A stretch of 29,071 nt of DNA from a virus. Shown piece after piece: positions 4,377-25,080 of this stretch. The DNA lies in the IMG/VR virus record IMGVR_UViG_3300042691_006032, positions 1 to 29,071 of that record; one strand, given 5' to 3'. A model generated the notes under the pieces. It ran no database searches and was not told the DNA's origin. It saw only the letters and a program-made list of their open reading frames with translations. The position numbers and the translations under genes are program-made. The number at the start of each line of letters is the position of its first letter. Positions within the stretch are counted from its first letter, which is position 1.

Positions 4377-4645
4377 GCAAAGAAGAAAAGGTTATCAACA
4401 GACTGATCGCAGACGTTCAGCATCTGAATAAGCTTGTGCAGTGGCAAGCCGCAGAGAACAGGCGGCTGCGCGAGGCGCTGCGGACTATTGCGGACGGAGA
4501 TACGCCAAGAGAACACGCAATCGTATATCGCTCTGACGGCGTTCATTCAAAGCATGACAAGTGCAAGCATGGCGCATGGATGTATGACGGGTGTGAAGAT
4601 TGTGTGGCTGAATATGCCCGCGCCGCACTTGGGGAGGGGAAGTGA
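4373..4645 (+). CDS. Coiled-coil plus Cys/His protein of the RLR family (90 aa)
   Basis: The ATG at 4373 overlaps the upstream stop (ATGA). The N-terminal helix contains ENRRLREALRTIADGD (residues 28-43). The C-terminal part has DKCKHGAWMYDGCEDC (C64, H66, C74, C77), a likely small zinc site, then YARAALGEGK. C-K-H-G-x-x-x-Y-x-G-C-E-x-C is, from memory, a recurrent motif in small phage proteins. The coding sequence of the LGEGK tail gives the ribosome site GGGGAGGGGAAG for the next gene. Confidence 0.7.
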   Translation: MSKEEKVINRLIADVQHLNKLVQWQAAENRRLREALRTIADGDTPREHAIVYRSDGVHSKHDKCKHGAWMYDGCEDCVAEYARAALGEGK

Positions 4646-4875
4646 TGGTTGATTACAAGAAGATCATCAAAGAACATTCCTGCAAAACCAATCAAGGCTG
4701 CGGCGTTGCCGAAACGTGCATGTGTGCCTTGGCAGAAGACATGGCATATGAAATAGATCGGCTGCGCGATGCGCTGCTTGAAATAAAAGATATGCCGATA
4801 AGGAAATCACAACCGCCATGGAGCATTCACGCTGAATATTTCCACATTGCCCGCGCCGCGCTGGAGGGGAAGTGA
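4645..4875 (+). CDS. Cys-containing RLR-family small protein (76 aa)
   Basis: Begins at ATG 4645 inside the TGATG junction. Cysteines at residues 13, 19, 25 and 27 (KTNQGCGVAETCMCALAED) could form a metal site. EIDRLRDALLEI (36-47) is the shared coiled-coil motif, and the protein ends IARAALEGK. The N-terminus differs from its relatives at 2838 and 4373, while the middle motif and tail are shared. The tail again encodes the ribosome site of the next gene (GGAGGGGAAG). Confidence 0.7.
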   Translation: MVDYKKIIKEHSCKTNQGCGVAETCMCALAEDMAYEIDRLRDALLEIKDMPIRKSQPPWSIHAEYFHIARAALEGK

Positions 4876-5078
4876 GCCTCCCGCCGGAATACTTCCGCAA
4901 CAATTACGGCCAATGCCGACTTGGTAACGACTGTCACTGTCTTCGTAATCTGGGGAATTGGTTGGGCGCTCTTTGCGCGCAATGGGAACCGACAAAGGCA
5001 ACAAGCTGGGAAGAGCTAATGGAGGAAGCCCGTGCAAGGCGTACAAAGCAGAAGGAAATTCAAAATGGCACGGTTTAA
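4872..5078 (+). CDS. Cys-rich small hypothetical protein, GTG start (68 aa)
   Basis: The GTG at 4872 overlaps the previous stop (GTGA) and has a strong ribosome site (GGAGGGGAA) at a fitting distance; there is no better ATG. The protein begins MSLPPEYFRNNYGQCRLGND and has cysteines in CRLGNDCHC. The C-terminus (SWEELMEEARARRTKQKE) is a charged helix. No known family recognised. Confidence 0.6.
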   Translation: MSLPPEYFRNNYGQCRLGNDCHCLRNLGNWLGALCAQWEPTKATSWEELMEEARARRTKQKEIQNGTV

Positions 5079-5298
5079 GTCCATCCCTGATAACGCTCAC
5101 CCCGTTATCCGCGCCATCTTCATCCGCATGAATGAGCTAAACCTTAGCTACATGCAGGTCGCGGTAAGGGCCGGGATTAACCCAAAGATACTTGAACGCT
5201 GGCGCGGGGCCTCTGATCCCAAGCTATCAACGCTCGACAAAGTGATGAAAGCTATCGGCATGTCTCTTACAACGGAGAAGACCAATGAACGCCATTAA
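5065..5298 (+). CDS. Cro/XRE-like helix-turn-helix protein (77 aa)
   Basis: Residues about 20-66 form a lambda-repressor-type HTH: NELNLSYMQVAVRAGINPKI, then LERWRGASDPKLSTLDKVMK and a final helix. In such domains the second and third helices bind operator DNA. The ATG at 5065 gives a domain-sized protein with an AAGGA ribosome site. A GTG at 5032 with a stronger GGAGG site would add 11 residues and cannot be excluded. It lies two genes upstream of the large terminase, so it may regulate the late genes or the promoter at 1274. The target is unknown. Confidence 0.75.
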   Translation: MARFKSIPDNAHPVIRAIFIRMNELNLSYMQVAVRAGINPKILERWRGASDPKLSTLDKVMKAIGMSLTTEKTNERH

Positions 5299-5560
5299 TC
5301 GCCTTGGTGCGCAGATCGACCAGAACGAAGCCATCGATCATCTCACCGCCGCCCAAGCAATGAGTGAGGCGTTTGATCAAATGCACATGCTGATGGAAGA
5401 GAATGTAAGAATGGCCAACGCCCTAAAAGCCATCATCGAATACGAAAAGGATAAGGCCACAGCTACACAAGGCACGGCTCCGGGCTTATCTGTTATGCTG
5501 GGGCCACCGGCTTGCATCGCAATGAACGCCCTCTTAGGAACCACTCATGGCAATTCTTGA
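5285..5560 (+). CDS. Helical hypothetical protein (91 aa)
   Basis: ATG at 5285, overlapping the HTH gene by 14 bases and overlapping terL by 14 bases. Mostly helical (AAQAMSEAFDQMHMLMEENV, then MANALKAIIEYEKDKA), with a Gly/Pro/Ala-rich end. No family recognised. Tight overlap on both sides supports it as a real, translationally coupled gene. Confidence 0.65.
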   Translation: MNAINRLGAQIDQNEAIDHLTAAQAMSEAFDQMHMLMEENVRMANALKAIIEYEKDKATATQGTAPGLSVMLGPPACIAMNALLGTTHGNS

Positions 5561-7292
5561 TATCGACGGCCAGCCAGTAGATATCGACCTTACGCTGGCC
5601 GAACTCGACAAGGCCGACTGTGAGGAAAGCCTTTACTTCTTCCTAGAGAAAGCGTGGCCCTACATCGATGGGTCAACCTTCACCCATGGCTGGCCTATTC
5701 AAGCCGTGGCAGAACATCTTGAAGCCGTGGCACGCGGTGACATACGCCGCCTTATCATCAACATCCCGCCACGTTGTGCCAAATCATCGCTGGTGTCCGT
5801 GGCATTCCCAGCGTGGACATGGGCGCAACCAAAAGAAAACTGGGGGCCAACCTGTGGTCCGCAAGTGCAGTTTCTCCATGCGTCCTATGCCCAACAGCTT
5901 TCTCTGCGCGATTCGACCAAGTGCCGCCGTCTGATTGAAAGCCCGTGGTATCAAAAGCTGTGGGGCGAAGGGTTTAGACTCCAAGGCGACCAGAACACCA
6001 AAACCCGCTTCGACAACAATATGAACGGGTCCCGCCTCGCCACATCGGTAGGGTCCGCCCTGACCGGTGAAGGCGGCTCTATCATCATCGTTGACGATCC
6101 GAACGCCGCGCAGGAAGCCTTCTCAGAGGCAACCATTGCCGCCACGATTGAGTGGTGGGACAGCGCGCTCTCGACCCGTCTCAATGATCCTAAGACTGGC
6201 GCGTTTGTTGTCATCCAGCAGAGACTGTCAGAAGAGGATTTGACCGGCCACATCCTGTCAAAAGACCAAGGTGACTGGACTCATCTGTGTTTGCCCATGC
6301 GTTATGAGTGGCAACGGCATTCCCAGACCATCTTAGGTTATGATTTGGAGGAAGAACCGGTCATCTGGAACGATCCGCGCGGCTGTATTGAGCTAGATGG
6401 CGAGGAAGTCTGCCTTGTTGAAGTCGATGAGGATGGCGGGCGTGTCCCCATCGGGCCAGAAGCACAGATTGAACTAGAAGAGCGAGAAGGAAAGCTGCTT
6501 TGGCCAGAGCGTTTCGGGCCAAATGAAGTGCGAATCCTAGAAAGACAGCTTGGCCCATGGGCTGCGGCCGGTCAGTTGCAGCAAAGACCAGAGCCAAAAG
6601 GCGGCGGCATCATCAAAAGAGACTGGTGGATGCCATGGGATAGCTCTGTTTATCCCAATATGGACATGATTATCGCCTGTCTCGACACCGCCTACACCAC
6701 AAAAACCGAAAATGACCCCTCTGCTATGACGATTTGGGGCGTTTTTTCGGGCGATGTGGTCGCTCAGAACATGAAACAGATTGGCGGATGGTCAGAGAGG
6801 TCGTTTTCTGAGAGCCACCCCCGCGTTATGCTCATGTATGCGTGGCAAGGTAGGTACGAATTGCATGAATTGGTCGCAAAAGTGGGCCAAACATGCCGAA
6901 ATATGCGCGTTGACCAGCTTTTGATCGAAAATAAAGCCGCTGGACACTCTGTTGCCCAAGAAATCAGGCGTCTTTACGGGTTTGAGAGCTTTGGGGTGAC
7001 GATGTTTGACCCTAAATCGCAAGATAAGATGGCCAGACTGTACTCAGTGCAGCATTTCTTCGCTGAGGGGTTGATTTACGCGCCAAATATGAGTTGGGCA
7101 GAGATGGTCATTACCCAAGTTGGCCAATTTCCCAAAGGAAAGCACGACGATTTGGTTGATACAGCATCGATGGCATTACGCCACCTACGCGATATCGGCA
7201 TATTGATTCGCGGGCAAGAGTGGGCGGCAGAAGCGGAAGCTAATCTCCGCTATAGCGGCTCTAGTAGCGTGGAGCCTCTTTATCCGGCATAA
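5547..7292 (+). CDS. terL: Terminase large subunit
   Basis: DNA-packaging ATPase and nuclease, 581 aa. The ATPase half shows a degenerate Walker A (INIPPRCAKSS, about 71-81), where the classical second glycine is Ala, and Walker B SIIIVDDP (178-185). The nuclease half shows the three acidic sites expected of the RNase H-like fold: CLDTAYTTKTENDPSAM (D380), LLIENKAAG (E461) and KGKHDDLVDTAS (D534, D535, D538). The length is typical. It works with the small subunit and docks on the portal encoded downstream. The start at ATG 5547 overlaps the preceding gene. Confidence 0.97.
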   Translation: MAILDIDGQPVDIDLTLAELDKADCEESLYFFLEKAWPYIDGSTFTHGWPIQAVAEHLEAVARGDIRRLIINIPPRCAKSSLVSVAFPAWTWAQPKENWGPTCGPQVQFLHASYAQQLSLRDSTKCRRLIESPWYQKLWGEGFRLQGDQNTKTRFDNNMNGSRLATSVGSALTGEGGSIIIVDDPNAAQEAFSEATIAATIEWWDSALSTRLNDPKTGAFVVIQQRLSEEDLTGHILSKDQGDWTHLCLPMRYEWQRHSQTILGYDLEEEPVIWNDPRGCIELDGEEVCLVEVDEDGGRVPIGPEAQIELEEREGKLLWPERFGPNEVRILERQLGPWAAAGQLQQRPEPKGGGIIKRDWWMPWDSSVYPNMDMIIACLDTAYTTKTENDPSAMTIWGVFSGDVVAQNMKQIGGWSERSFSESHPRVMLMYAWQGRYELHELVAKVGQTCRNMRVDQLLIENKAAGHSVAQEIRRLYGFESFGVTMFDPKSQDKMARLYSVQHFFAEGLIYAPNMSWAEMVITQVGQFPKGKHDDLVDTASMALRHLRDIGILIRGQEWAAEAEANLRYSGSSSVEPLYPA

Positions 7293-7317: not shown

Positions 7318-7536
7318 ATGGAACCCGTTCTTGCCAATGCCACGGTCGATGTCATCCGTGAATCGACCCCGCAGAAGATTGGATTATTTCGCGTCAACGT
7401 ATGGGGCCAGCCGCCTTATGCGGAGACGCGCATCTATGAAATTATGGCAAAAAACGATACACTAGCGGCCCAACAAGGCATCCGGCGCTTTGTTTCAGAA
7501 ATGCAAACAGTCTCCCAACAGGGGAACGATCAATGA
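7318..7536 (+). CDS. Conserved small phage protein between terminase and portal (72 aa)
   Basis: ATG 7318 follows AAGGGGGATAAA, a strong ribosome site; a 4-bp CCCT/AGGG hairpin (7297-7310) may partly cover it. The sequence VNVWGQPPYAETRIYEIMAK followed by NDTLAAQQGIRRFV resembles a small phage family commonly found here, with W-G-x-x-P-Y and D-T-L-A-A-Q-x-G-I-x-x-F-V motifs and no known function. It overlaps the portal gene by four bases. Confidence 0.75.
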   Translation: MEPVLANATVDVIRESTPQKIGLFRVNVWGQPPYAETRIYEIMAKNDTLAAQQGIRRFVSEMQTVSQQGNDQ

Positions 7537-9824
7537 GCATGACCCCCGGCCTAATCCCGAATATCCGCGAGTTGTTCCCGCAGGAGCAGCCTGCTGGCGA
7601 GGGGGAAGATGTCATTGTCGAAATCATCGAAGGTGATGACAAGCCTGTATTTGATACCGATGGCAACATCCTAGAAATCCAGCACGCTGACGGCTCAATC
7701 ACGGTTTCCATGGACGGCAAGCCGATTGAGCAAAGCCGTGAAGAGCGCGACACATCATCGTGGTTCCGCAATCTTGCTGAAGAGATTGCCCCGATGGAAT
7801 TGAGCCGCATTAGCGGCGACCTCATGCGCGCGATCAAAGAAGACCTCGACAGCCGCAAAGACTGGATTGAAGACCGCGCCCAAGGCATCAAGCTTCTGGG
7901 ATTGAAGATTGAAATTCCCGGCGTGCAAGGCGCGTCAGATGGTGCGCCCGTCGAAGGCATGAGCAAGGTTCGCCACCCGCTCTTGCTTGAAGCTGTGCTG
8001 CGCTTCCAAGCCAATGCTCGCTCTGAACTTCTGCCGACCGATGGCCCTGTCAAAATTCGCAATGACAGCAATTATGCCACGTTGGAGCAGGACCAAACTG
8101 CCAATGCTCTTCAGCGTGACATGAACCACTATCTGACGAGCGTTGCCAAAGAATACTACCCTGACACCGACCGCATGTTGCTCATGCTTGGCTTTGGTGG
8201 CACCTCGTTCAAGAAAGTTTACTTCTGCCCTCTGCGTGGCAGGCCGGTGTCAGAATCTGTCGATGCTGACGATTTGATCGTCAACAATGCTGCGACAGAC
8301 CTAAGCAATGCCAAGCGCATTACTCACCGCACGAACCTAAAGCCATCGACGGTCAAGCGCCTGCAAATCCTTGGTGTATATCGTGACGTTGCTCTCTCGA
8401 CTCCCGATTATGCAAATCCTAACGCTGCACAGAGAGAGAAGATGTCGCAGCAGGGTATCTCACAGGATAGTTTTAATCCTGAAGACCGTGACCGCGAAAT
8501 CTACGAGTGCTACTGCGAACTCGACATTCTTGGGTTTGAGCATCGATATAAGGGCAAAGAAACGGGCCTTGAAATCCCGTATCGTGTCACGATTGATGTC
8601 TCTTCAAAAGAAATTCTATCGATTGTGAGGAACTATGACGAAGAAACTCAGGAGCTTCCTGAAGCGCGCGTTAACTTTGTTAAATATACGTTCGTTCCGG
8701 GCCTTGGGTTCTACGACATTGGACTCCTCCACATCCTTGGTAACACAACAAACGCCATTACTGCCGCATGGCGTGAACTACTCGACGCTGGAATGTATAA
8801 CAATTTCCCCGGCTTCCTCATGGCAGACACGGGAGCGCGTCAAAACACAAACATCTTCCGCGTCCCGCCCGGAGGCGGCGCACTCGTAAAAACAAACGGT
8901 ATGCCGATCACGCAAGCCATCATGCCGCTCCCGTATAAGGAGCCATCTGGCGCGTTGATGAACCTTGTCACGCAAATGGCAGACACGGGCCAGCGCATTG
9001 GTGGAACATCCGAAGCGCAGGTCGGTGAAGGCAAGGCAGACATGCCGGTTGGCACAACCTTGGCGCTGATTGAGCAAGCAACCAAGGTGCTTAACGCTGT
9101 TCACAAGCGTATGCACACAGCCCAAGCTGAAGAGTTTGCGCTTCTTATGCGCTGCTTCAAAGAACATCCTGAGTCTTTCGTTGGCCGTTGCAAAAAGCCG
9201 TCGATGGAATGGACCGTTGATAATTTTGTGAAGGCTTTGGAAGATTGCGACCTTGTTCCGCAAGCTGATCCGAACACAGCTTCGCAAGCGCAGCGCATCA
9301 TGAAGGTGTCGGCGCTGAAGCAGTTGGCAATGGCAAACCCGTCTCTCTATGACGCGACCGCCGTTGACACGGCTGCGTTGCAAGCGATGGGTTGGAGCAA
9401 CCCGCAGCAATTTATGATCCCAGCAGAAAAGATGGGCGAGCCAAGCCCAGAAATCCTGAAGGGCCTTGCGGAGATCGAAAGCGACAAGATGTCGGCCGAA
9501 GCGCGGATGCTGGATTCTCAGACGCGCGCACGGCAGGTCGATGCAGAAATCGAACTCAAAAAAGCCGAAGCGCAGCGCGAAATGCAAGAAGGTCAATCTG
9601 GCATTTCCGAAGAGATGATGAAAATGGCATCGGATCGACAGAACCGGTTGTCAAACGAGCGCGTTCAGTTGATCGATTTGGCACAGGATGTGTTGCAACA
9701 TCCTGAAGCTATGGCGATGATCCAGCCGTTGATTCAGCCCGCTTTGCAAGAGTTGGCAGTCAACAAACCGCAGCCTGCCCCAGATGGCGTTATGCCACCA
9801 GTTCCCGGTGTCATTCCGCAATAA
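7533..9824 (+). CDS. Portal protein (P22-like)
   Basis: Dodecameric ring at the packaging vertex, 763 aa. The sequence has the layout of P22-type portals: an acidic N-terminal arm, a core with the pattern RHPLLLEAVLRFQANARSEL (about residues 148-167), the stem/clip region with YTFVPGLGFYDIGLLHILGN, and a long helical C-terminus rich in Gln/Glu (ARMLDSQTRARQVDAEIELK) that may form the barrel. The start ATG 7533 overlaps the upstream stop (ATGA). It follows the large terminase as expected. Confidence 0.93.
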   Translation: MSMTPGLIPNIRELFPQEQPAGEGEDVIVEIIEGDDKPVFDTDGNILEIQHADGSITVSMDGKPIEQSREERDTSSWFRNLAEEIAPMELSRISGDLMRAIKEDLDSRKDWIEDRAQGIKLLGLKIEIPGVQGASDGAPVEGMSKVRHPLLLEAVLRFQANARSELLPTDGPVKIRNDSNYATLEQDQTANALQRDMNHYLTSVAKEYYPDTDRMLLMLGFGGTSFKKVYFCPLRGRPVSESVDADDLIVNNAATDLSNAKRITHRTNLKPSTVKRLQILGVYRDVALSTPDYANPNAAQREKMSQQGISQDSFNPEDRDREIYECYCELDILGFEHRYKGKETGLEIPYRVTIDVSSKEILSIVRNYDEETQELPEARVNFVKYTFVPGLGFYDIGLLHILGNTTNAITAAWRELLDAGMYNNFPGFLMADTGARQNTNIFRVPPGGGALVKTNGMPITQAIMPLPYKEPSGALMNLVTQMADTGQRIGGTSEAQVGEGKADMPVGTTLALIEQATKVLNAVHKRMHTAQAEEFALLMRCFKEHPESFVGRCKKPSMEWTVDNFVKALEDCDLVPQADPNTASQAQRIMKVSALKQLAMANPSLYDATAVDTAALQAMGWSNPQQFMIPAEKMGEPSPEILKGLAEIESDKMSAEARMLDSQTRARQVDAEIELKKAEAQREMQEGQSGISEEMMKMASDRQNRLSNERVQLIDLAQDVLQHPEAMAMIQPLIQPALQELAVNKPQPAPDGVMPPVPGVIPQ

Positions 9825-9934
9825 GCATCTGTGACAGGTGGCAAACTTATGTTAGTCTTTGACAAGACTTGATGTCGCCCAAGTCAGCAGGTCAGGCGGC
9901 ACCGGGGACGCCCGGTTAACTCCATGGAGCAGTC
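9825..9934 (+). promoter_or_regulatory. Structured leader with alternative hairpins before the 945-aa gene
   Basis: AGTCTT (9854-9859) can pair with AAGACT (9864-9869). Alternatively GACTTG (9866-9871) can pair with CAAGTC (9880-9885). The two share 9866-9869 and so exclude each other. A further perfect hairpin, ACCGGG/CCCGGT (9901-9906 with 9911-9916), precedes the palindrome CTCCATGGAG (9920-9929), which contains the GGAG ribosome site for ATG 9935. A TTGACA lies at 9859-9864, but no good -10 follows. The pairings are seen; attenuation or translational control is inference. Confidence 0.4.
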
Positions 9935-12772
9935 ATGTCTGATATGGCGCGTAAGGCCCGTCTGGCCCTCAAAGCAAAAGCAAAGTCGCTTGCTGGTGAA
10001 AAAGACACCAAGGTTGATTCGTCCGATTGGACGCAGGCCGAACCTCTAAATGCTGATGTTAAGACGGGTGCGCGCCCTATTTCGCGCCGCGCTTTTAAGA
10101 AGGGTGGCAAGGTTGTTGGCGAGAAAGCCAAGGCCAACATGGGCCGCAAGCCCCGCGCTGCTGGTGGCATGTCACCGAAGGCTTATGCCGATGCCAAGAT
10201 TAACCGCAATGTGAAGGATGCCAACGAAGAGCGCGAAGGCAAGAAGCACATTGGCGGGTTTAAAAAGGGTGGCCGCACGCATCGTGAGGATGGCGGCGGT
10301 GTCATGCCTTCTCCTGAAGAAAAAGCCAAAACTCCTTCTCAGTTTATAGTTGTTGACCCGGATGGAACTCAATACGGTGGCGTGTACTCGTCTCGTAGCC
10401 GCGCCAATCGCGCGATGGACAAAAGAGACAATGAATACGGTGCATACCGCTATCGCGTGAAAGAAATCACCCCCAAAGCTAAGGGTGGCCGCACTCGCCG
10501 CCAAGAAGGCGGGCAGGTTGATCAGTATGATCGTGAGGCCCTGAAGAAGCTCATTGAGCGTGAATCGACAGGCGTGAAGCCGCGCGGTGAAAGCCGTGAA
10601 GTCGAAGCCTCTGATCTTTATACTCCAGAGCAGTTGAAGCGCCTTGAAGCTGGCCGCAAGAAGGGTGGCCGCACTAAGCGCGAAGAGGGCGGCCGCACCG
10701 GTATGCGCTCTGAATCGACGGAATACGCGAAAAAGAGCCGCGCGGCCGACGAAGAATACAAAAACGCCCAAGAAAAATATTTCAAAGGCGGCATGAAGAA
10801 TTGGGAAGAAAGCGGCGGCTACGAAGACAAGCATGGCCAGTACCACAGCCGCAAAAAGGGTGGCCGCGCCAAAAAGCAGGCTGGCGGAGCCATGATGATG
10901 GACCCGCGTCTTGGCATGGTTAGCCCGCGCGCATTGGAATTCACGAATGGTTCCATGGTCCCCGGCTTGAAGAAGGGTGGCAAGGTCAAGGCTGGCGCGT
11001 CCTTTGATGAAATGCGTTCCAAGTTTGGTACGCAGGTCATGAAGAAGGGTGGCAAGGCACATGGCGATGAAGCCATGGATAAGGCTCTCATCAAGAAGAT
11101 GGTTAAGAAGGAAGCTCGCACTGGTCGCGCTTCCGGTGGCCGTCAGTCGTTCAACTCTGCATTTGCTGAAGCCCGCAAGAACGGCATGGACCTGTTCGAG
11201 TGGAACGGCAAAAAGTACAACACGAAGCTTGCGGAAGGCCCCAAGAACGTGCCGCTGCCGCCGTCTTCGCGTGACCGCCCCGGCGCGGACATTGGCACGG
11301 GTGAGCGCCCAGAGCAGTCTGGCCGTGAACTTATGAATGAGCCGCCGCGCCGCCGCACTACAACGATCAATGAAACGGATGCCATGGGTTCGCCTACCGG
11401 CATGACCCGTGAGGTTGAAGCGCCACGGGCCGCATCAGAAGAAAGCGGCATGATCAACCGGTTGGTGCGTGAAACCCCGCTCAGTGGCTGGGGCTCGCGT
11501 TATCGTGGTTGGAGCGAGCGTGACAGCAGCGAAGGTGCTCGCAAGAAGGGTGGCCGGGCCAAGCGTGCCTGCGGCGGTTATGCCGGTGGTGGCATGGCTG
11601 AAGAAGGTGGCAAGCGTGGCAAGAAGGGTTCGGGCAAGACGAACATCAACATCGTCATTGCCGCTGGAAAGCCTGCTGACCAACAGCAGATGCAGCAGCC
11701 GCCTGCCGGTCCTCCTCCGGGCATGATGCCTCCGCCGCCTGCTCCGCAGGGTGGCGCTCCGATGCCGCCGCCTGAAATGATGGCTGGCATGGGCGCTCCT
11801 CCGATGGGCCGTAAGCGCGGTGGCCGTGCTGGCTATGCGGCGGGTGGACAGCCTGTCACAACGACAACGACAGCGCGCCCTGTCACACCTACAACGACAA
11901 CGACAACACGCCCTGCGGCTCAACGCGGGCCTGTTTCGCCAAATCTTGGAACAACCGCTGGTCCGGGTGGTGGTCGCCCTGCTCCAATCACGGTGCAGCC
12001 GCCCATTATGCCGCCGTCAGCTACCCCAAAAGCCCCCGGCTTTGGAATTGGCGGCCCAAATCCGGGCCGCCCAGCGCCTATGCCAATCCGCGATCCGGGT
12101 TTTGGCAATCCGCAAATCGGTCAACCCGGTATCGGCAATCCGCCAATGGTTAAACCGGGATTTGACGCTCCCATGCCGGGTGTTGGCCGTCCCGGCACAG
12201 TTGTCGATGTGAACCGTCCGGGCGCTCCGCCGCAAATCGGTCAACCCGGCATCGGCGGTATGCCAATCCGTGACCCCGGTTTTGGCTATCCTCAGATGGG
12301 TGGCCCTAAGATGCCGATTGCTAGTGTTCCAATGCCGATGCCTATTGGTACCGGTATTGGTCGTGAGCCCGGTTTTGGCAGCCCGCAACTTGATACGAAG
12401 TCGCCAGAAGCCTTGGCCGCTCTGTATCAGCAATTCCTCGCTCAACAGCAAGTTGGCGCGATGCCGCGCAAATCCGGTGGCCGTGTCACCAAAGTAGCCA
12501 AGTCCTATCAAGACATGGAAGCTGGTGCTGGTTCGGGCGAGGGCCGGTTGCAGAAGACGGACATTGCCAAGCGTCTGCCGAAAAAGCAGGAGAATGGCGA
12601 GAACGTCTATGAAGGTCGCGGCTACCCGAACAAGGTTTTGGGTGCCACAGGTGGTCGCACGGCTCGCAAGACTGGTGGCAAAACCTACGGCTCTTATAAG
12701 GACATGGATGCTGGCGCGGGCTCTGGTGAAGGCCGTCTTGAAAAGACGGAAATCCAGAAGCGTAAGCGGTAA
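9935..12772 (+). CDS. Large modular basic Gly/Pro-rich protein, probable virion component (945 aa)
   Basis: No classical domain recognised. Residues 1-550 carry repeated basic linkers of the form K-K/R-x-G-G-[RK], for example RAFKKGGKVVGEKAKANMG (52-70), FKKGGRTHREDGGG (109-122), RKKGGRTKREEGG (241-253) and RKKGGRAKRACGG (536-548). They separate small modules: a beta-like unit QFIVVDPDGTQYGG (136-149) with NEYGAYRYRV (166-175), and a unit SFNSAFAEARKNGMDLFEWN (405-424), the latter familiar from other phage proteins. Residues 568-640 are hydrophobic then Pro/Met/Gly-rich, 641-660 Thr-rich, and 680-820 repeat PGFGxPQ and QPGIG. The C-terminus has two copies of SYxDMxAGAGSGEGRL. The start has GGAG at 9926. 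Its position between portal and scaffold suggests a head-associated or ejected protein that binds DNA through the basic linkers; that is inference. Confidence 0.8.
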   Translation: MSDMARKARLALKAKAKSLAGEKDTKVDSSDWTQAEPLNADVKTGARPISRRAFKKGGKVVGEKAKANMGRKPRAAGGMSPKAYADAKINRNVKDANEEREGKKHIGGFKKGGRTHREDGGGVMPSPEEKAKTPSQFIVVDPDGTQYGGVYSSRSRANRAMDKRDNEYGAYRYRVKEITPKAKGGRTRRQEGGQVDQYDREALKKLIERESTGVKPRGESREVEASDLYTPEQLKRLEAGRKKGGRTKREEGGRTGMRSESTEYAKKSRAADEEYKNAQEKYFKGGMKNWEESGGYEDKHGQYHSRKKGGRAKKQAGGAMMMDPRLGMVSPRALEFTNGSMVPGLKKGGKVKAGASFDEMRSKFGTQVMKKGGKAHGDEAMDKALIKKMVKKEARTGRASGGRQSFNSAFAEARKNGMDLFEWNGKKYNTKLAEGPKNVPLPPSSRDRPGADIGTGERPEQSGRELMNEPPRRRTTTINETDAMGSPTGMTREVEAPRAASEESGMINRLVRETPLSGWGSRYRGWSERDSSEGARKKGGRAKRACGGYAGGGMAEEGGKRGKKGSGKTNINIVIAAGKPADQQQMQQPPAGPPPGMMPPPPAPQGGAPMPPPEMMAGMGAPPMGRKRGGRAGYAAGGQPVTTTTTARPVTPTTTTTTRPAAQRGPVSPNLGTTAGPGGGRPAPITVQPPIMPPSATPKAPGFGIGGPNPGRPAPMPIRDPGFGNPQIGQPGIGNPPMVKPGFDAPMPGVGRPGTVVDVNRPGAPPQIGQPGIGGMPIRDPGFGYPQMGGPKMPIASVPMPMPIGTGIGREPGFGSPQLDTKSPEALAALYQQFLAQQQVGAMPRKSGGRVTKVAKSYQDMEAGAGSGEGRLQKTDIAKRLPKKQENGENVYEGRGYPNKVLGATGGRTARKTGGKTYGSYKDMDAGAGSGEGRLEKTEIQKRKR
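12503..12763 (+). repeat. Direct duplication of a 24-codon unit at the 3' end of the 945-aa gene
   Basis: Copy 1 (about 12503-12573) and copy 2 (about 12692-12763) both encode S-Y-[QK]-D-M-[ED]-A-G-A-G-S-G-E-G-R-L-x-K-T-[DE]-I-x-K-R. The DNA differs at many third positions, so the repeat is kept at protein level. KSGGR or KTGGK precedes each copy. Confidence 0.75.
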
Positions 12773-12882: not shown

Positions 12883-13089
12883 ATGCTGACCTATCACGCT
12901 AAGTTTTTGCACGAATATCGCAAAATGATGCAGCAAGAGATTGAGCGCATCAAAGAATACATGACCGTAGCCTACATGCAGGAAGGGTTTGATTTTTCCA
13001 ATTACCGACACCAAGTCGGTAAGGTGGAAGGGCTTCGCACGGCATTGGAATTCTGTGACGAAGTAGATTCTGAGCTTAACAAAGAGTGA
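12883..13089 (+). CDS. Small helical phage protein (68 aa)
   Basis: ATG 12883 is preceded by purine runs (AAAAGGGGGG at 12863-12872 and GGGACG). The protein is helical: FLHEYRKMMQQEIERIKEYM, then NYRHQVGKVEGLRTALEFCD and an acidic end. The Y-x-H-x-V-G-x-[IV]-E-G-L-R-x-A-L pattern is, from memory, common in small phage proteins upstream of head genes. A scaffold or assembly helper is possible but unproven. Translation may be controlled by the pseudoknot leader. Confidence 0.7.
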   Translation: MLTYHAKFLHEYRKMMQQEIERIKEYMTVAYMQEGFDFSNYRHQVGKVEGLRTALEFCDEVDSELNKE

Positions 13090-13100
13090 AGGGGGAATTT

Positions 13101-13493
13101 ATGCCGTTTATGATCATGGAACATCAGACTGACCCTAAAGAGGCCATTCTGAAGGAGTTGGGGGACATCTCATCCCTCGAAATCTACAATAATCAGGTGC
13201 TTGTGGCGGTCTATATCCGCCCTGAGAAGACCAAAAGTGGCATTCTCTTGCCCGGCCAGACCCGTGACGAAGACAAGTTTCAGTCAAAAGTCGGCCTTGT
13301 CCTGAAGAAAGGCCCGTCAGCGTTTGAAGACACAAACGGGCAATGGTTCAAAGACGTTCAAATCAATGAAATGGACTGGGTTGTGTTCCGCCCTAGTGAC
13401 GGATGGAGCATTACGGTCAACAATGTCCTGTGCCGCATGATTGATGACATGAATATCAGAGGCCGCGTCGATCACCCTGATCGCGTGTGGTGA
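13101..13493 (+). CDS. GroES-like co-chaperonin
   Basis: 130 aa, with the Cpn10 layout: a first beta strand (NNQVLVAVYIRPEKTKSG, residues 30-47), a mobile-loop region SGILLPGQTRDEDKF (46-60) whose hydrophobic I-L-L resembles the GroEL-binding I-V-L of GroES, then KVGLVLKKGPSAF, and a C-terminal sheet MDWVVFRPSDGWSITVNNVL. Phage co-chaperonins such as T4 gp31 replace GroES so that host GroEL can fold the capsid protein. The location just upstream of the scaffold and capsid genes supports that role. The 30-residue N-terminal extension and 10-residue tail are extra. ATG 13101 is chosen for its AAGGGGGAA ribosome site. Confidence 0.85.
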   Translation: MPFMIMEHQTDPKEAILKELGDISSLEIYNNQVLVAVYIRPEKTKSGILLPGQTRDEDKFQSKVGLVLKKGPSAFEDTNGQWFKDVQINEMDWVVFRPSDGWSITVNNVLCRMIDDMNIRGRVDHPDRVW

Positions 13494-13504
13494 TGGAGAA
13501 CAAT

Positions 13505-14449
13505 ATGTCTGGCAAAGAAGAGCAAATTGACATGGATTTGGGTATTGATGACGCCCCTCCGGCCGCCAAGGTTGAAGAAACTGAGGTTGTAGAAGAGGTT
13601 GTTGTTGAATCTGCCACCGAAGGCGATGCTGCAACGCAACAAGAGCCTACTTTAGATGGCGATCAAGGTATCCAAGAGCTAAAACGGCGTTATGAATCCG
13701 AAAAACTGGCAAGAATTGAAGCTGAAAAGCGCGCTCGTGATGCCGCTCGACAGGCTGAAAAGGCCAATTCTCAGGTCCACGATGTCCAAATTAACCTTGT
13801 TCAGACCGCTTTTGACAATTTAAAGCGGGATCAGGAAATCCTCAAAAACTCCCTCAAAGAGTCCATGGCGATTGGTGACTTCGACCGCGCCGCTGAGATT
13901 CAAGAGGCCATGTCGATGAATTCGGCCAAGATTCTCCAGTTGGAGCATGGCCTGAGCGACATGAAGGCGCGGCCCCCGCAGCCGCAAACACCGCCCGTCC
14001 AACAGGGTGAGATGACGGTTGATGACCTTATCCAACGGGTCAATTCGCCAATTTCCAAGAATTGGCTGATGAACAACCGCAACTTCATCAGTGACAGCCG
14101 GTCTATTCGTATCATGGCGCGGGCTCATGAGGACGCCATTGATATGGGCGTCATTCCTGAGAGCCCTGAGTATTTCTCCATGATTGAGAACAGGCTTGGT
14201 ATTAACCGCCAGCCGCCCCCGCAACAGCAGCCTGTCTATCAAGATCAGGCTTTGTCGGGAGCTTCTGCCCCAACGCAGCGCCGGTCTAGCCCTGCTGCGG
14301 CCCCTGTATCTCGTAGCCCTGTCAGCAATAATGGCACGCGCCAGCAGACAATCCGTCTGACCCCGGAAGAGGTTGAGGCGGCCAAGATCAGCGGCCTGAC
14401 AACGCGAGAATACTGGGAACTGAAGCAAAAAGAGCGCAACCGCAATTAA
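13505..14449 (+). CDS. Probable capsid scaffolding protein
   Basis: 314 aa. Acidic low-complexity N-terminus (AKVEETEVVEEVVVESATEG), a long coiled-coil (about residues 60-150, for example ELKRRYESEKLARIEAEKRA), a Pro/Gln-rich linker and a short C-terminal helix (EEVEAAKISGLTTREYWELK). This composition and the place before the capsid genes are typical of scaffolds that line the procapsid and then leave. A basic C-terminal end (KQKERNRN) could contact the capsid shell. The start is the ATG at 13505 with TGGAGA upstream; ATG 13493 (overlapping the previous stop) is the alternative. Confidence 0.75.
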   Translation: MSGKEEQIDMDLGIDDAPPAAKVEETEVVEEVVVESATEGDAATQQEPTLDGDQGIQELKRRYESEKLARIEAEKRARDAARQAEKANSQVHDVQINLVQTAFDNLKRDQEILKNSLKESMAIGDFDRAAEIQEAMSMNSAKILQLEHGLSDMKARPPQPQTPPVQQGEMTVDDLIQRVNSPISKNWLMNNRNFISDSRSIRIMARAHEDAIDMGVIPESPEYFSMIENRLGINRQPPPQQQPVYQDQALSGASAPTQRRSSPAAAPVSRSPVSNNGTRQQTIRLTPEEVEAAKISGLTTREYWELKQKERNRN

Positions 14450-16213: not shown

Positions 16214-17125
16214 ATGGCCGTTAATCTTTCCGCCATTAAAGACCTTCTCCTTCCCGGTCTCCGTGGAGTTGAAGGCAAATACGAGCAGATTCCGTCCCAG
16301 TACGACAAAATCTTCACGAAGCACGAGTCGCGTATGGCTCTGGAACGCACCGCTGAGATGCGTTTCCTTGGCCTCGCGCAGTTGAAGACTGAAGGTGGTC
16401 AGACGGCGTTTGATAACAACGCAGGCGAACGCTACGTCTATAACCAAGAGCATACTGAAATTGCTCTGGGTTATGCCATCACGCGCAAAGCGATTGATGA
16501 CAACCTCTATAAGACGCAGTTTGCCCCGTCGAACCTTGGCCTCATCGAGTCCTTCCAGCAGACGAAGGAAATCTATGGTGCCAACGTCCTCAACACGGCG
16601 ACAACGTATAATGCGTCTGTCGGCGGCGACGGTAAGGCGCTGATTGCCACGGACCACCCGATTGACGGTGGCACGGTTGCGAACCGCCCGACAACGGACA
16701 CTGACCTTAACGAAGCTTCGCTGCTGAATGGCATGATTGCCGTTCGTACAAACTTCAAAGATCAGGCCGGTCTGAAGGTGTTCGCCCGCGCTCGTAAGCT
16801 GATCGTTCCCCCGGCTCTTGAGCCGGTTGCGATCCGCCTTACGAAGACGGAACTCCGTCCGGGTACGGCAGATAACGATGTCAACGCAATCATGATGACC
16901 GCTGGCGGCCTGCCAGAAGGTTACATGGTCAACGACTTCTTGACCTCGACATCTGCTTGGTTCCTGCTCACGAACATCGATGGTCTCTCCTACATGGAGC
17001 GCATCAAGTTCGAGACCGACATGCAAGTTGACTTTGTGACAGACAATTTGCTGGTCAAGGGCTACGAGCGTTACTCGTTCGGCTACTACAACTGGCGTTC
17101 TATCTGGGGCTCGTTCCCATCGTAA
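16214..17125 (+). CDS. Major capsid protein (HK97-fold, Mu gpT-like)
   Basis: 303 aa, forming the head shell. The pattern matches the gpT-like branch of HK97-fold capsid proteins: a helical N-arm (PGLRGVEGKYEQIPSQYDKI), the E-loop region (NNAGERYVYNQEHTEIALGY, about 72-91), the long spine helix after AITRKAIDDN, and the ending with FETDMQVDFVTDNLLVKGYE and a final RSIWGS. The context agrees: scaffold and co-chaperonin upstream, AAGGAG ribosome site and a terminator right after the stop. Confidence 0.92.
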   Translation: MAVNLSAIKDLLLPGLRGVEGKYEQIPSQYDKIFTKHESRMALERTAEMRFLGLAQLKTEGGQTAFDNNAGERYVYNQEHTEIALGYAITRKAIDDNLYKTQFAPSNLGLIESFQQTKEIYGANVLNTATTYNASVGGDGKALIATDHPIDGGTVANRPTTDTDLNEASLLNGMIAVRTNFKDQAGLKVFARARKLIVPPALEPVAIRLTKTELRPGTADNDVNAIMMTAGGLPEGYMVNDFLTSTSAWFLLTNIDGLSYMERIKFETDMQVDFVTDNLLVKGYERYSFGYYNWRSIWGSFPS

Positions 17126-17738: not shown

Positions 17739-18005
17739 ATGAAAGGTCGTAGTGGTCGTAAGACTGGTGGCACGGTCGTTAGAAATTCGCCTGTCACATC
17801 CGCTTATGCAGGCGGTGATTCCAACGTGGCAAAGGAAGCCCGCGCTGCTCGTAAGAAGGGCGGCAAAGTTATGGGCGAGAAGGCCAAGATGAACATGGGC
17901 CGTGCGCCGCGTAAGTCGGGCGGCATTTGCAGTGCCGATTGGACTGCCGCGCAGGGTCCGGGTACTTCGCCTCCCGGTCGTACCACGGATGGTTCCCTCT
18001 CCTAA
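17739..18005 (+). CDS. Small basic protein echoing the 945-aa protein (88 aa)
   Basis: Starts MKGRSGRKTGGTVVRN with TAGGAGG upstream. Residues 38-59 read RKKGGKVMGEKAKMNMGRAP plus RK, nearly the same as FKKGGKVVGEKAKANMGRKP at residues 54-73 of the large protein at 9935. The flanks differ: here RKTGG at the start and a polar Ser/Gly/Thr tail (PGTSPPGRTTDGSLS). Shared basic linkers suggest a common partner such as DNA or the capsid interior. The position among capsid genes supports a virion role. Function unknown. Confidence 0.75.
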   Translation: MKGRSGRKTGGTVVRNSPVTSAYAGGDSNVAKEARAARKKGGKVMGEKAKMNMGRAPRKSGGICSADWTAAQGPGTSPPGRTTDGSLS

Positions 18006-18082: not shown

Positions 18083-18352
18083 ATGGCAAAGACACCAGCA
18101 TGGCAACGCTCTGAAGGGAAAAACCCGGAAGGCGGTTTGAACGCAAAAGGCAGGGCGTCTGCTAAGGCAGAAGGCCATAATCTGAAGCCTCCCGTTAGCA
18201 AAGAACGGGCTCAGGCAAGTGAAATGGATGCCGCTCGTCGGCGCTCATTCTGTGCCCGGATGACGGGGATGAAGAAGAAACTTACTGGCGCGGCTGCCGC
18301 CGCAGACCCAGATAGCCGTATCAACAAGTCACTCAGAAAGTGGGATTGCTAA
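18083..18352 (+). CDS. DUF6321-like small protein (89 aa)
   Basis: Pattern MAKTPAWQRSEGKNPEGGLN, then AKGRASAKAEGHNLKPPV, a basic middle and RRRSFCARMTGM near residues 53-64, ending SRINKSLRKWDC. P-A-W-x-R-x-E-G-x-N-P-x-G-G-L-N-x-x-G and the R-R-x-S-F-x-A-R-M block are characteristic, from memory, of DUF6321, a phage family with no known function. Basic and probably partly unfolded. ATG 18083 follows AGAGGTGG. Confidence 0.8.
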   Translation: MAKTPAWQRSEGKNPEGGLNAKGRASAKAEGHNLKPPVSKERAQASEMDAARRRSFCARMTGMKKKLTGAAAAADPDSRINKSLRKWDC

Positions 18353-20822: not shown

Positions 20823-23000
<2,178 letters not shown>

Positions 23001-23001
23001 G

Positions 23002-23817
23002 ATGCCAATTACGATTAGCGGCTCAACAGGTATCGCTGGTGTTGATGGATCAGCCGCAACACCGGCTGTTCAAGGGACAGACGCAAATACTGGTGTGGTA
23101 TTTCCCGCTGCTGACACGGTATCCATTTCGACCGGCGGCTCTGAACGGATGCGTGTTGATAGTTCAGGCAACGTAGGGATTGGGACCACTAATCCAACAA
23201 GTGGCAAACTTGTTATTTCTGGATCATCAGTAACAACGAGCCAAGGAATACGTCTTGTTGGCGACACAGCAGACGCGCGATTTATTTGTGAAAGCGCAAC
23301 GCTTGGCGCAGGAATTATTGGGACATTTTCAAATCATAGTCAGCTTATTTATACAAACTCAACAGAACGCGCTCGGATAGATTCATCTGGCCGGTTCACA
23401 ACACCTTTCCAACCTAGATTTTCTGGCTACAGAACAGACGCAGCGCCAAATTGGGCTGGCTCTTCTGCTGCAACTACATTTGCCGCCAATAATGCATATA
23501 TTAATGTAGGTAATTGCTATAATACATCAACAGGTGTTTTCACTTGCCCAGTAGCAGGAAATTACAGAATATCTTTTGGCGCACTAATGGGCAATGTTGG
23601 CTGGGCAATGTTGTATTATTTTAAGAATGGGGTAGTTAGCGCATCATTAGCGCATGGTAATGCAAACGGGTATGCCTTATGGTTTACAGTTGGGTATGAG
23701 GTAATAGTATCATGCGCTGCTAATGATACATTAGCCGCCGCTTTTAATACAAATGGCGGTGGGGGATATTTATATAATTCTCAATACAATTATTTGGTTA
23801 TAGAGCTTGTCGGGTAA
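23002..23817 (+). CDS. Tail fibre with C1q-like tip (copy 1)
   Basis: 271 aa. N-terminal strand region MPITISGSTGIAGVDGS; a shared fibre linker NTGVVFPAADTVSISTGGSE with RMRVDSSGNVGIGTTNPT; then a C-terminal C1q/TNF-like jelly roll from ~residue 140 (YRTDAAPNWAGSSAATTFAA, VFTCPVAGNYRISFGALM, YNYLVIELVG). F-T-x-P-V-A-G-x-Y is the hallmark of bacterial and phage C1q-like tips, which form trimers. The tip DNA is noticeably A/T-richer than the neighbouring genes, which suggests exchange. Probably a receptor-binding tip. Confidence 0.8.
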   Translation: MPITISGSTGIAGVDGSAATPAVQGTDANTGVVFPAADTVSISTGGSERMRVDSSGNVGIGTTNPTSGKLVISGSSVTTSQGIRLVGDTADARFICESATLGAGIIGTFSNHSQLIYTNSTERARIDSSGRFTTPFQPRFSGYRTDAAPNWAGSSAATTFAANNAYINVGNCYNTSTGVFTCPVAGNYRISFGALMGNVGWAMLYYFKNGVVSASLAHGNANGYALWFTVGYEVIVSCAANDTLAAAFNTNGGGGYLYNSQYNYLVIELVG

Positions 23818-23827
23818 GGAGAGCAAA

Positions 23828-24106
23828 ATGGTAGAATACATCGTCACGCTGACAGATGAAGAAAATAAAGCTCTTTCATTTGTTGCATATTCGCAGCAAG
23901 AATGGATTGATAATGCAGTCCATGAACGCTGCCGTGTTGCGATTGATGAAATTTGTCAAATCTGCGTAGAAAAGTGCCTTGAAACCGGAACGCAAATTCC
24001 GGGGTCAAAAGATGCAATGGTAAATTTAGCATTTCAGATGGGTTGGGTTGTGGCTGCTAAAGACCGGCCTATACCGCCACCGCCTCCGACTATGGGAAGT
24101 GTGTGA
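23828..24106 (+). CDS. Small fibre-associated protein, copy 1 (92 aa)
   Basis: ATG 23828 follows AAGGAGAG; an upstream in-frame extension is rejected. The protein starts MVEYIVTLTDEENKALSFVA, then YSQQEWIDNAVHERCRVAID, ICQICVEKCLE and a Pro-rich end. It is almost the same as the product at 24814, with 11 differences by eye in the first 86 residues. Each copy follows a C1q-type fibre gene, so a fibre-assembly chaperone or fibre-attached cap is likely, by analogy with fibre/chaperone pairs. No direct functional evidence. Confidence 0.75.
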   Translation: MVEYIVTLTDEENKALSFVAYSQQEWIDNAVHERCRVAIDEICQICVEKCLETGTQIPGSKDAMVNLAFQMGWVVAAKDRPIPPPPPTMGSV

Positions 24107-24813: not shown

Positions 24814-25080
24814 ATGGTTCAATATACGATCACGCTGACAAACGAAGAGGATAAAGCACTATCGTTTGTTGCCTATTCTCAACAAGAGTGGATTGATAAT
24901 GCGGTTCATGAGAGATGCCGCGTAGCTATCGACCAAATCTGTCAAATCTGCATTGAAAAATGTCTTGAAACTGGAACGCAGATTCCCGGTTCAAAAGAAG
25001 CTATGGTGAACTTAGCTTTTGACATGGGGTGGGTTGTTCCAGCAAAGGATAAGCCAATTCCGCCTCCGCCAGCAGTGTAG
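24814..25080 (+). CDS. Small fibre-associated protein, copy 2 (88 aa)
   Basis: Near-duplicate of the product at 23828 (MVQYTITLTNEEDKALSFVA, YSQQEWIDNAVHERCRVAID, Pro-rich end). The DNA copies differ at many synonymous positions, so the duplication is not recent, or one copy came from a related phage. TAGGAGAGG is its ribosome site. The fibre-plus-small-protein pair thus occurs twice in a row. Confidence 0.75.
   Translation: MVQYTITLTNEEDKALSFVAYSQQEWIDNAVHERCRVAIDQICQICIEKCLETGTQIPGSKEAMVNLAFDMGWVVPAKDKPIPPPPAV

Follow-up and report, generated by a model that had tools for sequence, protein, structure and literature searches.

A family of cassette-built phage proteins encoded downstream of the portal: candidates for exchangeable virion cargo

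Introduction

What is the role of a long, strongly basic protein, built of small units joined by glycine-containing linkers, that a phage encodes directly after its portal? The question is raised by a 29-kb virus record (IMG/VR record IMGVR_UViG_3300042691_006032), analyzed here over its entire 29,071 nucleotides and referred to as the window. Injected phage proteins are a main route past host defences in the first minutes, and their rapid evolution and lack of known domains make them difficult to detect. The original prediction, drawn from the sequence of the window, rightly described the protein as modular, basic, non-standard and encoded between portal and scaffold; it overlooked the large family to which the protein belongs, the constant ends and exchangeable middle of its members, and the linkers as the joints of cassettes. 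These newly recognised features, read from sequence comparison, suggest a cargo of the virus particle that undergoes stepwise remodelling.

Linkers, composition and predicted structure

Eleven separate linkers of the form [KR].?GG[RK] punctuate the 945-aa protein (residues 55, 110, 183, 242, 307, 346, 370, 537, 627, 846, and 912), which bears out the earlier count of at least ten. The stricter motif KKGG[RK] occurs seven times, against 0.034 expected and a maximum of one in 2,000 shuffles. When overlapping matches are admitted, which counts some linkers twice, the general pattern gives 19 hits, compared with a mean of 1.5 and a maximum of 7 in 2,000 shuffled sequences. Lysine and arginine together account for 170 residues, and aspartate and glutamate for 98. 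The NINIVIAAGK segment, the Pro/Met stretch, the Thr tract and the PGFGxPQ repeats described beforehand are all present (Table 1).

In the ten listed linkers of the window gene the two glycines are invariably encoded by GGT GGC. This uniformity may reflect recent homogenisation or chance; a general nucleotide-level signal in the linkers is unsupported, since identical linker codon pairs within a protein, at 0.305 among 70 non-redundant relatives, are hardly above the 0.295 obtained with codon positions shuffled.

Comparison of the 945-aa protein with Pfam, PHROGs and PDB sequences gave no match, in support of the view that it is unlike any standard head protein, and no known enzyme or tape-measure domain was detected in Pfam or PHROGs. 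AlphaFold2, run with 32 relatives, returned short helices only (mean pLDDT 46, pTM 0.23), and the protein is accordingly predicted to be mostly disordered, with no beta-rich fold. The best-predicted part is an N-terminal helix at residues 3-19 (pLDDT 83-85 over residues 1-20). A role resembling that of ejection proteins, in the sense of a channel former such as T7 gp14-16 or P22 gp7/16/20, found no support: neither an ejection-protein nor a transglycosylase domain of these systems was matched in Pfam or PHROGs, and the model consists mostly of disorder.

A head-gene setting

The gene lies in a head operon, with the portal upstream and the GroES-like and putative scaffold genes downstream, which agrees with the position between portal and scaffold given earlier; the terminase gene (5547-7292) is near by. 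No significant profile match was obtained for the putative scaffold. The order portal, variable genes, a gene of about 65 aa, GroES, scaffold-like gene, two small genes and capsid is common to the window and its annotated relatives, namely pelagiphage HTVC027P, phage DSL-LC04, Roseobacter phage CRP-901, and phage 023Pt_psg01, and because these relatives keep the same order, the region is the head module.

Table 1. Features of the 945-aa protein gene and its surroundings in the window.
Feature	Coordinates	Strand	Evidence or remark
SU10-type portal	7533..9824	+	Directly upstream of the KGG gene; Pfam SU10_portal 3.9e-15, PHROG portal 1.2e-27
945-aa KGG-linker cassette protein	9935..12772	+	ATG start; pI 10.2
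Conserved N-terminal block, residues 1-123, MSDMARKAR...KVDSSDW...KTGARPISRRAFKKGGKV...NRNVKDANEEREGKKHIGGFKKGGR	9935..10303	+	Near-invariant columns in 34 relatives
KKGGKVVGEKAKANMGRKPRAAGG module, residues 55-78	10097..10168	+	Also in small ORF 17739-18005
Linker KKGGR, residues 110-114	10262..10276	+
Other linker starts	10097, 10481, 10658, 10853, 10970, 11042, 11543, 11813, 12470, 12668	+
Variable cassette TPSQFIVVDPDGTQYGG...YRYRVKEI	10331..10468	+	Singletons c31/c32; absent from other relatives sampled
DEAMDKALIKKMVKKEARTGRASGG / DEAMDKALIKKMVKP cassette	11063..11140	+	Cluster c4; commonest middle cassette of the family, 50/82 proteins
FEWNGKKY module, residues 403-433	11141..11233	+	Predicted helix and beta-hairpin; in many other phage proteins
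KGKTNINIVIAAGK hydrophobic segment, conserved	11630..11671	+	Cluster c1, 81/82 proteins; columns K566-I575
Pro/Met-rich stretch, Thr tract (about 11858-11930), PGFGxPQ repeats (about 12080-12390)	11672..12460	+
C-terminal repeat copy 1, SYQDMEAGAGSGEGRLQKTDIAKR	12503..12574	+	Clusters c9/c0
C-terminal repeat copy 2, SYKDMDAGAGSGEGRLEKTEIQKRKR	12692..12769	+	Cluster c0
GroES co-chaperonin-like protein	13086..13493	+	PHROG 1.3e-9
Putative scaffold	13487..14449	+	Acidic N-terminus, position, composition
Major capsid protein	16214-17125		PHROG/Pfam; downstream of putative scaffold
Second, small KGG protein, 88 aa	17739..18005	+	Downstream of capsid gene; one module common with the 945-aa protein

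A place between the portal and GroES/scaffold might point to a head assembly factor that acts outside the finished virion, for example a partner of the scaffold or portal that leaves or is degraded, and the acidic N-terminus of the putative scaffold could offer a binding site to a long, basic, disordered protein. However, in phages that are more distant yet of the same structural class, nothing comparable occupies the portal-GroES slot; a Synechococcus/Planktothrix-type relative that carries the same head genes is one of them. For this reason the KGG protein looks accessory rather than core. Against a core assembly role this absence weighs most heavily, and a middle made of exchanged modules (see below) is likewise unlike a core assembly factor; we consider this explanation decidedly unlikely.

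That the protein sits on the surface or is associated with the tail, its variable modules contacting the host or the environment, is highly improbable: variable regions are typical of host-contact proteins and a collagen-like fibre gene occurs in the same genome, but the KGG gene sits with head genes rather than with tail fibres and its product lacks a predicted beta-rich fold. The fibre-like protein itself (20826-23000; 724 aa) has long GPTGPTG repeats (Pfam Collagen 2.2e-43). Each of two tail-fibre-like genes is followed by a gene for a small protein of 88-99 aa (23807-24106 and 24814-25080); the two products are closely similar, apparently a duplicated pair.

The module common to the small KGG ORF and the large gene, KKGGKVxGEKAKxNMGR, is 84% identical in DNA over 51 bp. 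A similar small KGG ORF lies at about the same distance downstream in three relatives (L040, L046, and L048). A further small protein of the window, encoded at 18083-18352 downstream of the capsid gene, belongs to DUF6321 (E 2e-20) and, like the product of ORF 17739-18005, is basic; in HTVC027P, DUF6321 is found between the portal and GroES.

A large family with fixed ends

An alignment-based scan of viral contigs confirmed at least 533 loci of the family, which is defined by the TGxRP[IV]SRR N-terminal block, repeated [KR]xGG[RK] linkers and the KTNINIVI block, all of which the window protein possesses. The deposited phage genomes contained one member, in an uncultured complete genome from Manatee Spring, and the collection searched therefore holds no cultured representative. 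Searches with the window protein retrieved both identical and more divergent copies. Anchoring on the SU10-type portal gave 29 loci with 6 kb or more of sequence beyond that gene. In 28 of them a homologous KGG protein follows, either immediately or as much as several kb further on; copies of the window phage account for three of these loci. The remaining locus (L080) possesses in that slot a KGG-rich ORF without the N-terminal signature.

With 945 residues against a median of 502, the window copy is the longest of 82 distinct complete proteins. These contain 5-19 linker-pattern hits each (mean 11.3, compared with 1.7 after shuffling), and 80 of the 82 exceed all of their own 50 shuffles; the linkers are a property of the whole family. 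All members are basic, with pI values of 9.8-10.7 and a median net charge of +46. Nine loci occur in genome bins of unrelated phyla, probably viral contigs binned together with cells, and no host is claimed. The family member in MW202675.1 (11914-13062) is annotated as 'yenB', which looks like an automatic misannotation; this identity was set aside because no search supports such a relation.

Three blocks make up the constant part of the family. An N-terminal block of about 120 residues is common to all members, 81 of the 82 proteins have the KTNINIVIAAGK segment with a Pro/Met-rich stretch after it, and 66 have C-terminal SYKDMDAGAGSG repeats, SYKDMDAGAGSGxGRLEKTEI. Such fixed ends combined with GG linkers provide a recognisable signature for hundreds of uncultured phages.

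Cassette exchange and selection

Between the fixed blocks lie short cassettes bounded by linkers. Clustering of all segments of the 82 proteins gave 69 recurring clusters, some of which are the conserved blocks themselves, and 103 singletons. The same cassette occurs with different neighbours and at different relative positions. Among three close relatives (L008, L009, and L010), DNA of 92-99% identity flanks two sites at which a cassette is either absent or substituted by an unrelated cassette. Comparison of close pairs identified 40 exchange or indel events, which, coming from related phages, are only partly independent. Of their breakpoints, 61% fall no further than 3 aa from a linker GG, as opposed to 17% of random positions, and 72% no further than 5 aa, as opposed to 25%; alignments tend to extend through a linker common to both sequences, which favours linker-proximal ends by a few residues. 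On these comparisons, cassettes are swapped, gained and lost, with exchange taking place at the linkers.

Estimates of dN/dS, averaged without error bars over 58 overlapping pairs in stretches 80-98.5% identical, were 0.109 for the N-terminal block, 0.146 for the middle cassettes, 0.175 for the C-terminus, 0.180 for the linkers, and 0.195 for the Pro-rich part. The cassettes are thus under purifying selection and, on that ground, not filler but kept as proteins between exchanges. The family thereby yields about 170 candidate mini-modules that are both selected and exchanged.

These values also bear on an internal DNA-condensing or charge-neutralising function of a protamine-like kind, in which only the basic linkers would matter and the cassettes would be spacers. 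The charge of the family, the purifying selection on the linkers and the predicted disorder are all in keeping with such a protein. Spacers should drift, though, whereas the cassettes are as constrained as the linkers and remain recognisable units across phages, and the Synechococcus/Planktothrix-type relative does without any such protein in the slot. Selection on the cassettes being the strongest argument against pure DNA condensation, we regard this possibility as rather unlikely.

Modules shared with other phages

The FEWNGKKY module (consensus xSFKEAFAxARxxGxKTFEWNGKKYTT), modelled alone with 19 relatives, is predicted to form a helix plus hairpin (AlphaFold2 pLDDT 81), and a search of this fold against the PDB gave no match (best E 1.0). 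Elsewhere the module belongs chiefly to small, basic KGG proteins from other phages, whose genes, in the loci examined, are grouped with other short genes in the interval from the capsid region to the tail genes. Over 31 residues it shares 74% identity with part of gp38 of the crAss-like phage cr107_1, which by gene order occupies the slot of cargo protein C1 (gp45) of phi-crAss001, a protein detected by mass spectrometry and cryo-EM in capsid and tail (PMC10172136). The sequence similarity of gp38 to gp45 is not significant, and the crAss_CARG1 domain of gp45 was not found in gp38; the link to cargo consequently rests on position and one short module. Nor is the module specific to cargo, since a microvirus M15-type peptidase ends in a FEWNGKKY-type module and a csAss 'tail lysozyme' contains one internally. 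Two microvirus proteins (ON840023.1, 2314-2892; MK765623.1, 2151-2765), M15-type peptidases by eye and one of them unannotated in its own record, end in F-W-NGKRY-T. In csAssE-Sib, the 'tail lysozyme' (4501-6921) follows the muzzle gene and has an FTWNGKRYNT module just before its best lysozyme match.

A second link leads to cultured pelagiphages. The family cassette KWIQKAIKHPGALHKSL... corresponds to the stand-alone 88-aa gp44 of HTVC027P (47% identity over 83 aa, E 2e-19), encoded directly after the portal and followed by ten more tiny genes, several of them with KGG motifs. This free homologue in the same slot, beside further tiny basic proteins, would agree with a polyprotein whose GG linkers are cut to release the cassettes as separate mini-proteins, as would the coincidence of cassette boundaries with linkers; against it, no protease for linker cutting was identified, and we hold a polyprotein to be very unlikely.

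The gene directly after the portal in MW202675.1 encodes a polyvalent protein with GNAT, peptidase M15 and ART-PolyVal domains, preceded and separated by the xGG linkers HADGGRV, YASGGYV, and YADGGEV; the KGG protein is encoded three genes later. For polyvalent proteins, packaging in the head and subsequent injection have been predicted (PMC5512222). Large ORFs occupy the place after the portal in most relatives, and profile searches of four of them gave a single weak ART-PolyVal match, so that a polyvalent neighbour is established in this one genome and only suggested in others. The window has no large or polyvalent-type ORF between the portal and the KGG protein.

Pfam scans of the window protein and 33 relatives detected DUF6496 (PF20106) once, as a cassette of one member (L103, E 2.6e-10), and one weak hit; DUF6496 is absent from the window protein. 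The open literature yielded nothing on DUF6496 or on disordered modular ejection proteins.

Comparison with known systems and proposed role

The internal proteins IPI, IPII and IPIII of T4 are small and basic, with a common targeting end and a body poorly conserved between related phages; they are packaged, then ejected, and IPI inhibits a restriction enzyme of the host (PMC9026906). Across the 82 mapped proteins the KGG family similarly combines conserved ends with a variable body. T4 encodes its internal proteins as separate genes with a short N-terminal capsid targeting sequence that is removed by the prohead protease, whereas the KGG modules are joined on one chain, predicted to be disordered, by repeated basic GG linkers behind a conserved N-terminal helix. 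The likeness is one of architecture; a sequence relation to the T4 proteins is not claimed.

Polyvalent proteins, known from phages and conjugative elements (Iyer et al., 2017), resemble the KGG family in having several modules and in being encoded among virion and portal genes, but they combine at least two domains of disparate biochemical activities, whereas no enzymatic domain was found by Pfam in the 34 KGG members. Crassvirus cargo protein 1 (gp45 of phi-crAss001) can also be likened to the KGG protein, being 842 aa long, mostly unresolved in the virion and provided with a C-terminal KGGKVRTKKKKG tail, and the protein in the corresponding position of cr107_1 contains the FEWNGKKY module. 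It differs in showing no overall similarity, and in having a predicted transmembrane helix and the portal-binding crAss_CARG1 domain (PF25725), which gp45 matches at 2.3e-66 and the window protein and its relatives do not.

We propose, at about even confidence, that the KGG protein is an accessory virion cargo with exchangeable modules, probably ejected. An intrinsically disordered, basic protein made alongside the head genes would be enclosed in the head and would probably leave it together with the DNA. Fixed handles, for targeting to the head or portal or for retention, would be supplied by the N-terminal block, the C-terminal repeats and the KTNINIVIAAGK/Pro-Met block, while the basic GG linkers would give the chain flexibility and may tether it to the packaged DNA; a flexible chain would traverse the narrow portal easily. 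The modules between linkers would constitute a changeable payload, swapped between phages as whole cassettes at KKGGR linkers, and, if T4 internal proteins and polyvalent proteins are a guide, this payload would most likely serve to cope with the newly infected host.

A more specific version of virion cargo, which we consider unlikely, takes the protein as one disordered chain of mini-proteins strung between basic GG linkers, delivered with the genome and re-edited by cassette swaps. The mini-proteins would be released by cutting at the linkers or be active while still joined, and pelagiphages would keep the same kind of mini-proteins as separate genes in the same slot. The small KGG genes of HTVC023P-type pelagiphages (HTVC027P gp44-gp54; 023Pt_psg01) indeed occupy that slot, have the linker motif in several cases and include the one module common with the KGG family; they are separate and encode 36-128 aa each, whereas the clade of the window has one long chain. 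As these phages are cultured, their genes allow direct testing of the cargo idea. In another phage with the head gene order of the window (L020), four short basic genes, most of them with KGG motifs, lie between the capsid region and the tail genes (9036-11547).
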